Notes under the pieces: model-generated | The model's input: the letters and a program-made list of their open reading frames with translations, nothing else | Database searches by the model: none | Told to the model about the DNA's origin: nothing | Shown: piece after piece, positions 5,882 through 50,354 of the stretch | How the letters are laid out: each line of letters opens with the position of its first letter | Numbering within the stretch: position 1 is the stretch's first letter | Program-made: the position numbers and the translations under genes | Assembly (NCBI GenBank): GCA_030684645.1 | Contig: JAUXUF010000273.1 | Span: forward strand, 1 to 50,658 | Reading direction: 5' to 3' | Source: Bacteroidota bacterium | GTDB lineage: Bacteria; Bacteroidota; Bacteroidia; Bacteroidales; Prolixibacteraceae | Length of the DNA stretch: 50,658 nucleotides

Positions 5882-6346
5882 TTATTCATCATACCATTCA
5901 AACAAATATTTCTCATCATATTCAACTTCAAATTTTTTCAGAAAATCCAGGTATTCTTCCTTAAAAGTCCTTTTGTGATGGTGTTCTTCCTGATTGAGAA
6001 TGTATTGATAAACCTGATCTATTTGAGAATGTGAATAAGAGAATGAACCAAAACCTTCTTGCCAGGAAAATTTACCACGAACAAATTTTTGCTCGTTAAT
6101 AAAATTGCTTGAATTATTTTTAACATCTCTGACTAAATCGGATAATGACATGGAAGGTTTTAGCCCAACAAATAAATGCACATGGTTGGCAACCCCATTG
6201 ACAATGATCGGTTTTTGATTTTTACCTTTGATTATCCCCGACATATATTTGAAGACCTCATCGCGCCAGGATTTTTGAAGCAGGTTTGTGCGACCGTTTA
6301 CCGCAAAAACAACCTGAATATAAATTTGAGAAAATGTTCCAGCCAT
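5882..6346 (-). mobile_element. REP-associated / IS200-like tyrosine transposase
   Basis: 154 residues of the Y1/HUH transposase superfamily (IS200-like TnpA fold). The HUH pair is in NGVANHVHLFVGLKP and the nucleophilic Tyr is probably in the segment FSYSHSQIDQVYQYI. The conserved WQEGFGSFSYS block and the ending EYLDFLKKFEVEYDEKYLF are typical of the stand-alone Bacteroidetes group. There is no partner tnpB and no recognisable classical IS ends. Instead a cluster of small palindromes (6385-6789) begins just upstream of the start codon, the layout expected for a RAYT gene that processes REP elements. It sits inside the molybdenum hydroxylase operon in the same orientation. The reading frame is intact, so it may be active. 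Confidence 0.88.
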
Positions 6347-46972: not shown

Positions 46973-47962
46973 TTAAAGATTCATCAGTTTATTAAATGCA
47001 ATTAATGCCTTTTTGCTTTTCAGCGATTGAGAAGCTTCAGCCACACAATCGATCAACGATTTCTCCGGAAACATACACTTAATCCCCAGCGCAGCATTGG
47101 CAATCACCACATTCTGCTGAGCCTGCGTTCCGGTTCCGTCCAAAACACTTTTAAATATTTTAGCAGCTTCTTCAACTGTTTCTCCACCAAAAAGCTCTTC
47201 CGGCGAAACAGGTTCAAAACCAAAATCAGCCGGTGAAAGATTATCTTCCGTGAGGTTCGAAACAAAACGGGCATCGCCGGTAAGCGAAATCTCATCGTAA
47301 CCGTCCAGACTATGCACTATCAGGAAGTTTTGTCCACTATCGCTGAAAACCTGCCGGTAAAGGTCCATCACTTCCAGATCGTAAACGCCCACCAGTTGAT
47401 TTTTAGGGAATGATGGGTTGATGATCGGTCCCATAATATTAAAGATCGTTTTTACTTTCAGGGCGCGCCGAACCGGGGCTACACTTTTCATGGCCGGGTG
47501 AAACAAAGGGGCATGAAAAAAGCATATACCTGCTTCCTCAACTTCACGGCGTAATTTATTTTCATCGTTGCTAAACTGATAGCCAAAATATTCGAACATG
47601 TTGGATGATCCGCTAACTGACGACAACCCGTAGTTACCGTGTTTGGTTACTTTGATTCCCGCTCCGGCCAGCACAAAAGCGCTGAGGGTTGAAATGTTAA
47701 AGGTATCTTTTCCATCGCCACCGGTGCCGACAACATCAATCGTATTGTATTCGGATAGGTCGATCGATACGCACAATTCGAGTAAGGCCTGCCTGAATCC
47801 CGCCAGTTCTTCAGCTTTAATCCGGCGCATTTGGAAAACAGTCAGGAAGGAAGCAATCTCAGCTTCAGAAAACTGGCCTTCTGCAATTCTCACCAATACC
47901 TGGTGTGCTTCGGCTTTAGTCAGGCTATTGCCCGCAAATAAATGGTTTAATGTATCTTTCAT
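46973..47962 (-). CDS. trpD: Anthranilate phosphoribosyltransferase
   Basis: 329 residues. It transfers phosphoribose from PRPP to anthranilate. VGTGGDGKDTFNISTLSAF holds the GTGGD PRPP loop and GIKVTKHGNYGLSSVSGSSN the KHGN anthranilate/Mg site. FFHAPLFHPAMKSVAPVR and FNIMGPIINPSFPKNQLVGV are typical. Stand-alone TrpD, not fused to TrpG. It is 211 bp downstream of trpG, across C/G-rich palindromes, and 3 bp before the methyltransferase-like gene. Confidence 0.95.
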   Translation of the reverse strand: MKDTLNHLFAGNSLTKAEAHQVLVRIAEGQFSEAEIASFLTVFQMRRIKAEELAGFRQALLELCVSIDLSEYNTIDVVGTGGDGKDTFNISTLSAFVLAGAGIKVTKHGNYGLSSVSGSSNMFEYFGYQFSNDENKLRREVEEAGICFFHAPLFHPAMKSVAPVRRALKVKTIFNIMGPIINPSFPKNQLVGVYDLEVMDLYRQVFSDSGQNFLIVHSLDGYDEISLTGDARFVSNLTEDNLSPADFGFEPVSPEELFGGETVEEAAKIFKSVLDGTGTQAQQNVVIANAALGIKCMFPEKSLIDCVAEASQSLKSKKALIAFNKLMNL

Positions 47963-48173: not shown

Positions 48174-48878
48174 TCAGAAAGCCCCTCTTTTGGAGGGGTT
48201 GGGGAGGCCAAGCCAGTTCGCAATGATCTGTTCACCCAGCGGCGTCAGCACCGATTCGGGGTGAAACTGGACACCTTCCACATCATATTCAGTATGTTTC
48301 ATCGACATGATCATTCCTTTGTCGTCGTAACTGGTCACCTGTAAACACTCAGGAAAGCCAGCAGAATCGACAATCCACGAGTGATAACGGCCAGCCTGAA
48401 AAGTCTCCGGAAGGCCTTCAAACAAAGCAGTTGGTATTTCGGTTCTGGTAACCGGGGTGGCAATTCCGTGCAAAACGCGGTTCATGTTGGTGAGCGTTCC
48501 GCCAAAAGCCTCACCAATAGCCTGATGCCCGAGGCATACTCCCAGAATACTTTTGGTTGGAGCATACCTGCGGATAATATCGAGCAACAAACCGGCTTCT
48601 CCGGGAATTCCGGGACCGGGCGACAATACAATTTTATCGTACTGATCAAGGTCTTCCAATGCAATTTCATCGTTTCGATATACATCAACCGGCATACCCG
48701 AAATTTTTTTGATCGCATGCACCAGGTTGTAGGTGAACGAATCGTAATTATCTATGACTACAATAGAGCCTCCCCCCTGCCCCTCAGGAGGGGTGAAATT
48801 GAAAGCCTCCCCCCTGCCCCTCCTGTGGAGGGGTGATTGGGATTCGCTAGTTTCTGTATTGTATTCTCTTTGCTTCAT
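48174..48878 (-). CDS. trpG: Anthranilate synthase glutamine amidotransferase subunit, with repeat-encoded ends
   Basis: 234 residues. The amidotransferase supplies ammonia to TrpE. Canonical sequence begins at residue 39 (IVVIDNYDSFTYNLVHAIKK). The nucleophile is Cys in LGVCLGHQAIGEAFGG and the catalytic His/Glu lie in GVQFHPESVLTP. The first 38 residues are abnormal: the ATG at 48878 leads into 14 ordinary codons, then two in-frame C/G-rich palindromic repeats (SPLHRRGRGEAF and TPPEGQGGGS). No ATG, GTG or TTG lies in frame at the usual start, where the codon is ATT. The last ten residues (LPNPSKRGAF) come from a third repeat. Apart from the ends the enzyme looks normal. Confidence 0.9.
   Translation of the reverse strand: MKQREYNTETSESQSPLHRRGRGEAFNFTPPEGQGGGSIVVIDNYDSFTYNLVHAIKKISGMPVDVYRNDEIALEDLDQYDKIVLSPGPGIPGEAGLLLDIIRRYAPTKSILGVCLGHQAIGEAFGGTLTNMNRVLHGIATPVTRTEIPTALFEGLPETFQAGRYHSWIVDSAGFPECLQVTSYDDKGMIMSMKHTEYDVEGVQFHPESVLTPLGEQIIANWLGLPNPSKRGAF
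48182..48198. repeat. C/G-rich palindrome forming the 3' end of trpG
   Basis: CCCCTC-TTTTG-GAGGGG lies inside the last codons of trpG. On the minus strand it is read as part of NPSKRGAF and supplies the end of the protein. Confidence 0.8.
48768..48795. repeat. C/G-rich repeat inside trpG 5' region, copy A
   Basis: GCCTCCCCCCTGCCCCTC is followed by AGGAGGGGTG. It is nearly identical to copy B at 48805-48835 but lacks three bases (TGT region) in the loop. In frame on the minus strand it encodes TPPEGQGGGS. Confidence 0.85.
48805..48835. repeat. C/G-rich repeat inside trpG 5' region, copy B
   Basis: GCCTCCCCCCTGCCCCTCC is followed by TGTGGAGGGGTG; core CCCCTCC-TGT-GGAGGGG. In frame on the minus strand it encodes SPLHRRGRGEA. 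Same orientation as copy A, 37 bp apart start to start. Confidence 0.85.
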
Positions 48879-48912: not shown

Positions 48913-48943
48913 ACCCCCTCTTGTGGAGGGGGCAGGGGGAGGC
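48913..48943. repeat. C/G-rich repeat directly after trpE
   Basis: ACCCCCTCTTGTGGAGGGGG followed by CAGGGGGAGGC: the same element in the opposite orientation, ending one base short of the trpE stop codon (48945-48947). Confidence 0.85.
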
Positions 48944-48944
48944 C

Positions 48945-50354
48945 TCAATTAATCTCTTTCGCAATTTCCATTGCTTTTTTCAAGGCCGCCAGTTTGTTGT
49001 TCACTTCCTGAAGTTCATTTTCTTCCTGAGAGTCGGCGACAATACCGGCACCAGCCTGGTAAAAAAGAGTATTTCCTTTGCTAAGGAAAGAGCGGATCAT
49101 GATGGCATGATTCAATGTTTGATCGAATCCCAGATACCCGATACAACCACCATAATAACTCCGCCGTTGGTTCTCGTAAACGTCAATTAACTGCATGGCA
49201 CGATGTTTTGGCGCTCCCGACAAAGTTCCGGCCGGAAACGAATCGCCCAGAACGGTAATCATGTTGGTATTTTCGGGCAATTTACCTGAAACTTCCGAAA
49301 CCAGGTGAATGACATGTGAAAAATACTGAACCTGCCGGTAACTATCAACCGTAACATCGCTGGCATTTCGGCTCAAATCATTCCTCGCCAGATCGACCAA
49401 CATGACATGCTCTGCATTTTCCTTCGGATCGGCGCACAAACGTTCAGCGGAAAGGCGATCTTCATCATCATTCCCTGACCGTTTGAATGTACCGGCAATC
49501 GGATTGATGATAGCCCGGTCTTTCTTAATACGCAACTCGGCTTCCGGACTTGAACCGAAAATTCGGTAAGTTCCGTAATCAAAGAAAAACAGATAGGGAG
49601 ATGGATTAATTGAACGCAAAGCCCTGTAAACATTGAACTCGTCGCCTTTAAACGCTTGCGAAAACTGACGCGAAAGCACAATCTGAAAAACATCGCCGCG
49701 GAAACAATGTTCCTTACCTTTGCTTACCATGTACTTATATTGCTCATTGGTAATGTTCGAAACTTCGTCGCCAACGGTATCAAATTGGGTGGGCGAAAAA
49801 GTCAGGTTGCGAAGTAGTGATTCAATCTGTCCGATTTCTTTGGTCTCGCCATCCATCAGGTTTTCGATCAGGTATATCATATCCTTGTGATGATCGATGG
49901 CCGCGATGTACTTGTAGAAACAGTATTTTACTTCGGGAACCGAATAGGCTTCCTTGGCTTTGGCGGTAATTTCTATCTTCTCAAAATACTTTACCGCATC
50001 GTAGCTGATGTATCCAAATAAACCATTGGCCGGGAGGTTATCGGTTTCTCCGGATAAACGGAACGATTTGAAAAAAGCATCCAGTTCTATATCAACCGGA
50101 CATTCTGAAGAAATTTGTTTAGTCACTTTCTCCCGACCATTACAATCGATGGTGATTGTACCGGCATCGGCAGTAAAACAAGCCATTGGCTTGATACAGA
50201 TGAACGAATACGCATTCTCGTGTCCATGATAGTCTGAACTCTCAAGCAAAATAGAATTCGGGAACAAATCCCTGAATTTCAGGTAAACACTTACCGGGGT
50301 AAGGGTGTCGGCCAATATTTTTTTTACGCTGACCTGGACGTTGATTTTTTTCAT
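48945..50354 (-). CDS. trpE: Anthranilate synthase component I
   Basis: 469 residues; forms anthranilate from chorismate with ammonia from TrpG. SILLESSDYHGHENAYSFIC carries the LLES tryptophan feedback-inhibition motif. The chorismate-binding half has FFDYGTYRIFGSSPEAELRI, PIAGTFKRSGNDDEDRLSAE, LVDLARNDLSRNAS and FPAGTLSGAPKHRAMQLID, followed by YYGGCIGYLGFDQTLNHAIM. First gene of the operon trpE-G-D-X-C-F-B-A. No Trp-rich leader peptide or T-box was found upstream; regulation is probably by feedback plus an unrecognised control. Confidence 0.96.
   Translation of the reverse strand: MKKINVQVSVKKILADTLTPVSVYLKFRDLFPNSILLESSDYHGHENAYSFICIKPMACFTADAGTITIDCNGREKVTKQISSECPVDIELDAFFKSFRLSGETDNLPANGLFGYISYDAVKYFEKIEITAKAKEAYSVPEVKYCFYKYIAAIDHHKDMIYLIENLMDGETKEIGQIESLLRNLTFSPTQFDTVGDEVSNITNEQYKYMVSKGKEHCFRGDVFQIVLSRQFSQAFKGDEFNVYRALRSINPSPYLFFFDYGTYRIFGSSPEAELRIKKDRAIINPIAGTFKRSGNDDEDRLSAERLCADPKENAEHVMLVDLARNDLSRNASDVTVDSYRQVQYFSHVIHLVSEVSGKLPENTNMITVLGDSFPAGTLSGAPKHRAMQLIDVYENQRRSYYGGCIGYLGFDQTLNHAIMIRSFLSKGNTLFYQAGAGIVADSQEENELQEVNNKLAALKKAMEIAKEIN

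Follow-up and report, generated by a model that had tools for sequence, protein, structure and literature searches.

Where does translation of trpG begin when the codon that should open the enzyme is no longer a start codon? This question was raised by a Prolixibacteraceae contig (JAUXUF010000273.1, assembly GCA_030684645.1), and the whole stretch analyzed, 50,658 nucleotides long, is hereafter called the window. Its trpG open reading frame (48174–48878, minus strand) encodes the anthranilate synthase glutaminase subunit in 234 amino acids, with a repeat-written N-terminus and a repeat-written C-terminus. The initial annotation had claimed that the TrpG core (IVVIDNYDSFTYN) opens at an ATT codon with no ATG, GTG, or TTG beside it, that the nearest start lies 38 codons upstream, and that the path between both points crosses two near-identical C/G-rich palindromes in frame, and all of this was borne out. 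The canonical Ile codon ATT, the first of the core, is found at 48762–48764 (minus strand), and the proposed start codon, the ATG at 48876–48878 (minus strand), lies 38 residues before it and is the sole in-frame ATG, GTG, or TTG ahead of the core; the open frame itself starts four codons 5' of this ATG. Reading on the minus strand from the ATG, we found 14 A-rich leader codons (KQREYNTETSESQS, 48834–48875), then palindromic repeat 2 (48805–48833, translated PLHRRGRGEA), and then palindromic repeat 1 (48768–48793, translated TPPEGQGGG), which stands one codon ahead of the core Ile; both repeats are in forward orientation. The segments 48767–48785 and 48804–48822 are identical across 19 nt, and the repeat pattern occurs three times in the window, against 0.01 occurrences expected from shuffled sequences.

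A facing palindrome, a C-terminal copy, and recurrence in other genomes are additions to the initial annotation. The facing (inverted) palindrome (48914–48943, plus strand) is placed 1 base past the trpE stop codon (48945–48947, minus strand) and brackets the start codon together with repeat 2. The C-terminal copy (48182–48207, plus strand) has the orientation opposite to repeats 1 and 2 and writes the TrpG C-terminus, GLPNPSKRGAF. When 30 loci were inspected by eye, opposite-orientation palindromes were seen to write the TrpG C-terminus in six of them (the window, L086, L087, L094, L103, and L114), and the trpG 3' ends of L084 and L085 resembled eroded palindrome remnants. The upstream neighbor trpE (48945–50354, minus strand), assigned from the sequence by eye, has termini that look ordinary, and the downstream neighbor trpD (46973–47962, minus strand), which has kept its native ATG, was used as the control gene.

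trpG starts across Bacteroidota

The starts of trpG were compared in 190 loci, 110 from the genus and family of the window and 80 from Bacteroidota with public names. This sample left out 16 full-length family matches of low rank, plus partial or second-copy ones, and one record was probably counted twice, since L003 and L166 share an identical TrpG and lie on contigs of equal length. An ATG located 3–8 codons 5' of an invariant Asp was present in 151 of the 190 loci and absent in 39, and this comparison bears out the earlier claim that the gene in the window has lost its normal start: where normal-start relatives read ATG-AAA-(ATA/ATT), the window reads GGC-TCT-ATT. The initial annotation had proposed to check whether relatives are free of the repeats and carry an ATG at the Ile codon; relatives free of the repeat have ATG-AAA directly ahead of Ile, which comes close to that proposal. 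A palindrome, scored by eye, was found at the start site in 22 of the 39 loci with no near ATG. Eighteen of these repeat-type loci belong to the family (eight of them to the genus), and four are found elsewhere (L031, L043, L051, and L061); the palindromes differ among Prolixibacteraceae, Mucilaginibacter, and Maribacter.

The other 17 loci with no near ATG had no recognizable palindrome either; three are in the family and 14 in far relatives. Displacement of the start can thus do without a repeat, and, as far as these sequences tell, trpG starts are labile in general. The initial annotation had held that relatives with an extension but no repeat would speak against its reading; these 17 loci come near to such a state, but none was seen in the genus. 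They include L009, L010, L012, L036, L037 (B. fragilis), and L193, the last of which may carry an eroded repeat.

At all 22 repeat-type loci an in-frame ATG was present 5' of the palindrome, and in 18 of them the stretch from the palindrome through the Asp was free of ATG, GTG, and TTG; in the four exceptions a different start is conceivable, namely an ATG within the palindrome in L103, a TTG within it in L061 and L096, and a TTG in L162 that precedes the Asp by three codons. Multiple ATGs were found in the open stretch of L087, L103, and L114, and the inner ATG of L103 and L114 was the one used when initiation contexts and upstream hairpins were counted. The openness of the true frame from the last stop to the core holds by construction; in the alternative frames of the 22 stretches, stops were found in 22 for the +1 frame and in 12 for the +2 frame. 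Since the stretches had been selected for being open, p values from shuffled leaders were not taken as proof. The palindrome is translated as SPLLRRGRGEAS, TPPSEGQGGGS, or HPSFGGAGGRPS depending on the species, i.e., in all three frames. Net frame was preserved in 12 overlapping aligned leader pairs, as follows from picking in-frame ATGs, and in the pairs L090/L095, L087/L092, L087/L096, and L031/L043 mutually offsetting indels keep the frame, a result that depends on the alignment. The informative evidence is the presence of the ATG 5' of the palindrome, along with these compensating indels, which would be the pattern expected of selection for an open path from the ATG to the core, though not a proof of translation.

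The repeat state was then placed on a TrpG protein tree, a quick one built with 118 sequences (109 from the family and nine of the 80 named loci, including the four repeat-type ones; L208 was left out because it was too short). The state changed 16 times, with at least seven changes forced by well-supported branches, on a tree in which 56 of 114 inner branches are open, gain and loss are not distinguished, and gene transfer is possible. In our judgment, repeated gain seems likelier than precise loss restoring ATG-AAA. The TrpG of the window pairs with that of L085, a normal-start locus (support 87, not starred). The control gene trpD was located in 90 loci, and the comparison covers the 30 that belong to the genus and family: its ATG was kept in 30 of 30, whereas the trpG ATG was lost in 11 of the same 30. 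Because of this difference, the trpG end is, on the sequence comparison, hit or tolerated unusually often. This recurrence, together with close relatives that have the old start, offers natural replicates of one event, so that start-codon change, the entry of repeats into proteins, and missed N-termini become testable.

Readings of the altered start

The reading that we favor, with a probability of about 0.84, is that the repeat replaced the trpG start and that translation would run from the ATG at 48878 through the repeats into the normal enzyme. A dispersed G/C-rich palindrome, which at this locus forms a facing pair around an A-rich spacer, would have settled between trpE and trpG; the palindromic unit would have displaced the native ATG-AAA, and the spacer would provide the new ATG within open, A-rich mRNA. 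Ribosomes would start at this ATG, read the 14 leader codons and the two palindromes, and then continue into normal TrpG. The length of an N-terminal insertion need not be a multiple of three, as an in-frame upstream ATG would suffice, and the palindromes should be readable in several frames because they contain few stop codons. The tail would be tolerated because it probably has no ordered structure and does not belong to the folded core. Other proteins encoded by this genome would have the same repeat family read at their N-termini, internally, or at their C-termini. We infer the start at 48878, the retention of a near-neutral tail on the mature enzyme, and the mode of repeat movement considered below. 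The initial annotation had proposed a start at 48878 with a repeat-written tail, an event like that of Rickettsia palindromic elements (RPEs) but in another phylum, and the comparison lends support to this proposal, the upstream ATG being found at 22 of 22 loci. The sequences also suggest that the ends of proteins are rewritten by repeats of this type in this bacterial group.

The facing palindromes could, alternatively, be mainly an mRNA device, a long stem holding the trpG start in its loop that would set the TrpG:TrpE dosage or the stability of the mRNA, with the tail as a by-product. Of the 22 repeat-type loci, 16 have a perfect 6-bp G/C-rich hairpin within the 130 nt that precede the ATG, compared with three of 128 normal loci (those with an ATG exactly six codons before the Asp). 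In addition, the facing palindrome and repeat 2 of the window form 29-nt arms that are 76% complementary (complementarity of the arms ranges from 76 to 83%), a single site was altered repeatedly, and a TGA/ATG overlap at another locus of this genome, L143, fits translational coupling. The palindromes are, however, absent from 168 of the 190 loci and clade-specific, and unrelated proteins also contain copies, either internally or C-terminally. We consider it unlikely that this is their main role, and such a device is compatible with, rather than opposed to, translation from the upstream ATG. A trp-leader attenuator found no support, as the leader peptide has no Trp codon.

Clearly less probable is a non-AUG start at the ATT itself (48762), in which the GGGGGGAGG of the repeat would act as a Shine-Dalgarno sequence and the repeat as a 5'-UTR, leaving a normal protein. 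The GGAGG ends 4 nt 5' of the ATT at 48762–48764, so initiation there is conceivable, and an earlier survey took most REPs at ORF N-termini in Proteobacteria to be extragenic, the actual translation start lying further downstream (PMC3733652). Against this, both the core codon (ATA in eight repeat-type loci, ATT in six, ATC in six, GTA in one, and GTT in one) and its spacing vary between loci, and the Bacteroidetes are naturally devoid of Shine-Dalgarno sequences, with mRNA structure and an A at −3 tuning initiation in Flavobacterium johnsoniae (PMC6847099). An A at −3 was found for the upstream ATG in 18 of 22 loci and for 83 of the 128 normal trpG ATGs, but for the core codon in five of 22, the other 17 being without it. 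Moreover, in 21 of 22 loci (all but L092) the computed unpaired probability near the ATG was higher than that near the core codon, with means of 0.70 and 0.42, respectively. In the window, the ATG has an A at −3, and the mean unpaired probability was 0.71 near the ATG versus 0.33 at the ATT. The context of the upstream ATG, with A at −3 and less pairing, fits initiation in Bacteroidetes as described there (PMC6847099), and a start at the ATT would leave the in-frame upstream ATG of all 22 loci unexplained.

It is very improbable that trpG is decaying or unexpressed and its missing start meaningless. The start codon is gone and the genome is fragmented (408 contigs), but the protein has a complete class-I glutamine amidotransferase domain, as in anthranilate synthase component II (TrpG/PabA): the Pfam GATase match spans amino acids 40–222 (2e-49) and profile positions 1–186 of 190. 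Residues invariant across an alignment of 29 sequences were retained, among them Cys115, His206, and Glu208, which we take to be the catalytic triad. The neighbors trpE and trpD are open, the remaining matches in the genome are just 27–28% identical, and the same state was found in the one-contig genomes G035, G036, and G040. TrpG aligned to the solved TrpG structures 1qdl_B and 1i1q_B, with the solved homologues beginning at query amino acids 36–40, and the AlphaFold2 model gave a pLDDT below 50 for amino acids 1–35, a first strand at amino acids 39–43, and a confident core; from this model and these alignment limits, the tail is likely disordered and outside the fold. An assembly or binning artefact at the repeat can be practically dismissed, since, although there are 408 contigs and assemblies break at repeats, the same join is present at 22 loci, some of which belong to one-contig genomes or to the named strains Mucilaginibacter phenanthrenivorans BJC16-A38 and M. 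agri R11.

The repeat unit, its copies, and known systems

Two repeat patterns gave 42 and 61 matches genome-wide, against four and two for reversed-pattern controls, and 65 distinct palindrome copies were recognized. In 31 of the 65 copies, none of the six frames of a 33-nt unit contained a stop, compared with 190 of 3000 random 33-mers from the window. Given the excess of upstream facing hairpins at repeat-type loci, the unit resembles, at least by its sequence, two inverted copies with their own start between them. Such a pair with its own ATG was found at L143 (1502–1641, in the genome of the window), where it precedes an ORF that also has its own ATG; the mini-ORF of the pair ends in a TGA that overlaps the ATG of this following ORF, an arrangement known from translational coupling. 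The L143 spacer resembles the trpG leader of another species, with 87% identity over the unit, and the trpG of the window is 77% identical over the whole unit; the leader stretch of the window also aligns to trpG leaders of other species. Since the L143 spacer matches a trpG leader, it appears that spacer and palindromes are copied jointly at least occasionally. The whole 140-bp unit was found at four places, namely the L143 query, one more site in G019, and trpG of the window and of G021; the trpG of G019 has a 90-nt part of it, and the remaining matches were shorter. The notion of a whole cassette moving with its leader found partial support, as most matches to the L143 unit are short palindrome ends. 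Facing pairs were found at trpG and L143, and by eye other copies appeared single or differently paired. In the 57 nt around the 65 copies, CTAC occurred nine times, GTAG six, and CGTC four, with no constant tag.

About 24 of the 65 copies were assigned by eye to protein frames: 12 are N-terminal (10 genes), seven internal (six ORFs), and five C-terminal, and the remaining 41 lie between genes, next to a retained ATG, or in an ambiguous position. As assigned, the N-terminal copies all have one orientation and the C-terminal copies all the other. The ten N-terminal genes encode TrpG, an MGMT-like protein, a ROK protein, enoyl-CoA hydratase, biotin carboxylase, an ABC ATPase, an MtaB-like methylthiotransferase, an S4 protein, RimO, and methylpurine glycosylase, where names finer than the Pfam family are our own reading. 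In the nine proteins other than TrpG, the Pfam domain begins at profile positions 1–5, 2–7 residues past the repeat (18 in the ABC ATPase), and in all ten genes the stretch from the repeat end to the domain start is free of ATG, GTG, and TTG; in biotin carboxylase (L133), however, the second residue of the domain is encoded by TTG, and the sole ATG of RimO (L310) lies within the repeat. In-frame internal palindromes in the genome of the window were also observed in a UDP-sugar dehydrogenase (L135) and a DNA methylase (L318), and that of L304 lies between PHP and aldolase domains, which may be a fusion of two genes; for L273, a 602-aa ORF with an internal repeat, the Pfam search gave no family. 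In Mucilaginibacter, a palindrome precedes the domain of a ComB-like protein (L365) and is internal in a RadA-like protein (L375). The terminal position that the initial annotation had given to the repeat stands for TrpG, but the repeat is not exclusively terminal, and other genes and another order are involved.

DUF559 (PF04480) nuclease-like domains were found in frame inside ValRS and IleRS of the genus, adjoining proline/glycine-rich peptides like those written by palindromes, and a link of this domain to repeat movement would be purely hypothetical. When ValRS was aligned with the Thermus enzyme (1gax), query positions 7–212 and 351–824 matched chain positions 1–206 and 204–659, and the 138-residue gap between the blocks corresponds to a DUF559 domain adjoining palindrome-like peptides; the same kind of insert is present in IleRS. 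DUF559 matches were obtained in 14 of 23 genomes of the genus, many in long open frames. Among the loci read, eight are ValRS-like and three IleRS-like (L319 and L320, both in the genome of the window, L323–L325, L328–L332, and L337), with palindrome-like peptides adjoining the domain, and the check by PDB or Pfam covered L320 and L319. Among 27 DUF559 loci, 12 had the strict palindrome core, often at a distance from the DUF559 boundary at another site of the same gene; two had a shorter part of it, and 13 had nothing. The strict motif speaks against palindromes on both sides of DUF559, and at L321 both copies are on one side. A single ORF of the Mucilaginibacter locus L356 (916–1884, minus strand) contains DUF559 and a HisH-like glutamine amidotransferase, connected by a palindrome. 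That DUF559 nucleases move the palindromes is a guess from this association. The RAYT (Y1) transposase was rejected as the mover, because the palindrome motif was found within up to 1.5 kb of none of the ten Y1 loci examined (of 11 matches). The window itself has a Y1 transposase gene of the REP-associated type (5990–6334, minus strand), with no trpG-type palindrome nearby. A wider scheme, which we hold to be doubtful, is that Bacteroidota harbor mobile facing-pair cassettes whose own initiation region and ATG destroy native starts and weld N-termini onto housekeeping proteins; trpG would have been hit many times independently by unrelated palindromes, and the DUF559 genes associated with palindromes of the same kind, in ValRS/IleRS or fused to HisH, would represent an autonomous form able to mobilize the short cassettes.

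RPEs and intragenic REPs make this a known kind of event (PMC3733652, PMC2229807, PMC10969869, PMC6006769); a Wolbachia report of palindromic elements is cited in PMC2229807, and R. conorii proteins with an NH2-terminal RPE-1 have been reported as expressed in vivo (PMC3733652). Neither repeat-written starts in Bacteroidota nor a link between DUF559 and palindromes turned up in a search of the literature, most subscription journals lying outside its coverage. As with RPEs, in-frame palindromes are found in several unrelated conserved proteins and tolerated; judging from open frames and domain positions, they would lie within trpG, ValRS, IleRS, and other conserved genes. Unlike RPEs, the repeat belongs to another phylum, the window sharing its family with Draconibacterium (L166) and not lying in Rickettsia or relatives; it is G/C-rich, about 30 nt long, and often paired, versus the 105–146 bp given for RPEs; and here the native start codon was lost and the same gene end altered repeatedly.

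The likeness to REPs, REPINs, and BIMEs is that short palindromes are dispersed genome-wide, and REPs often form inverted doublets and also lie within ORFs; Bacteroidetes are, moreover, among the phyla with CGTC repeats (both in PMC3733652). In contrast to them, the repeat of the window has no constant GTAG or CGTC tag and flanks none of the ten Y1 loci examined. It was therefore filed neither as an RPE nor as a GTAG/CGTC REP, whose defining features it does not share. ERIC, the 107-bp form of Correia, and YPAL are MITEs, likewise small mobile repeats, with ORFs that fuse in frame to those of the host (PMC2229807, PMC10969869), but they are of another size class.

A repeat with which an ORF begins is easily dismissed as a misannotated start, and gene-start prediction in Bacteroidota, where Shine-Dalgarno signals are missing, may overlook such N-termini. 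REPs at NH2 termini have been described, and many were thought extragenic since translation may begin downstream (PMC3733652). Unlike those cases, trpG of the window has no downstream start codon before the domain, so that the repeat would be translated, or else no enzyme would be made from a standard start. Compared with these systems, what is new is this missing downstream start, the recurrent change of one gene end by palindromes that look unrelated, and the position of the start between two facing copies.
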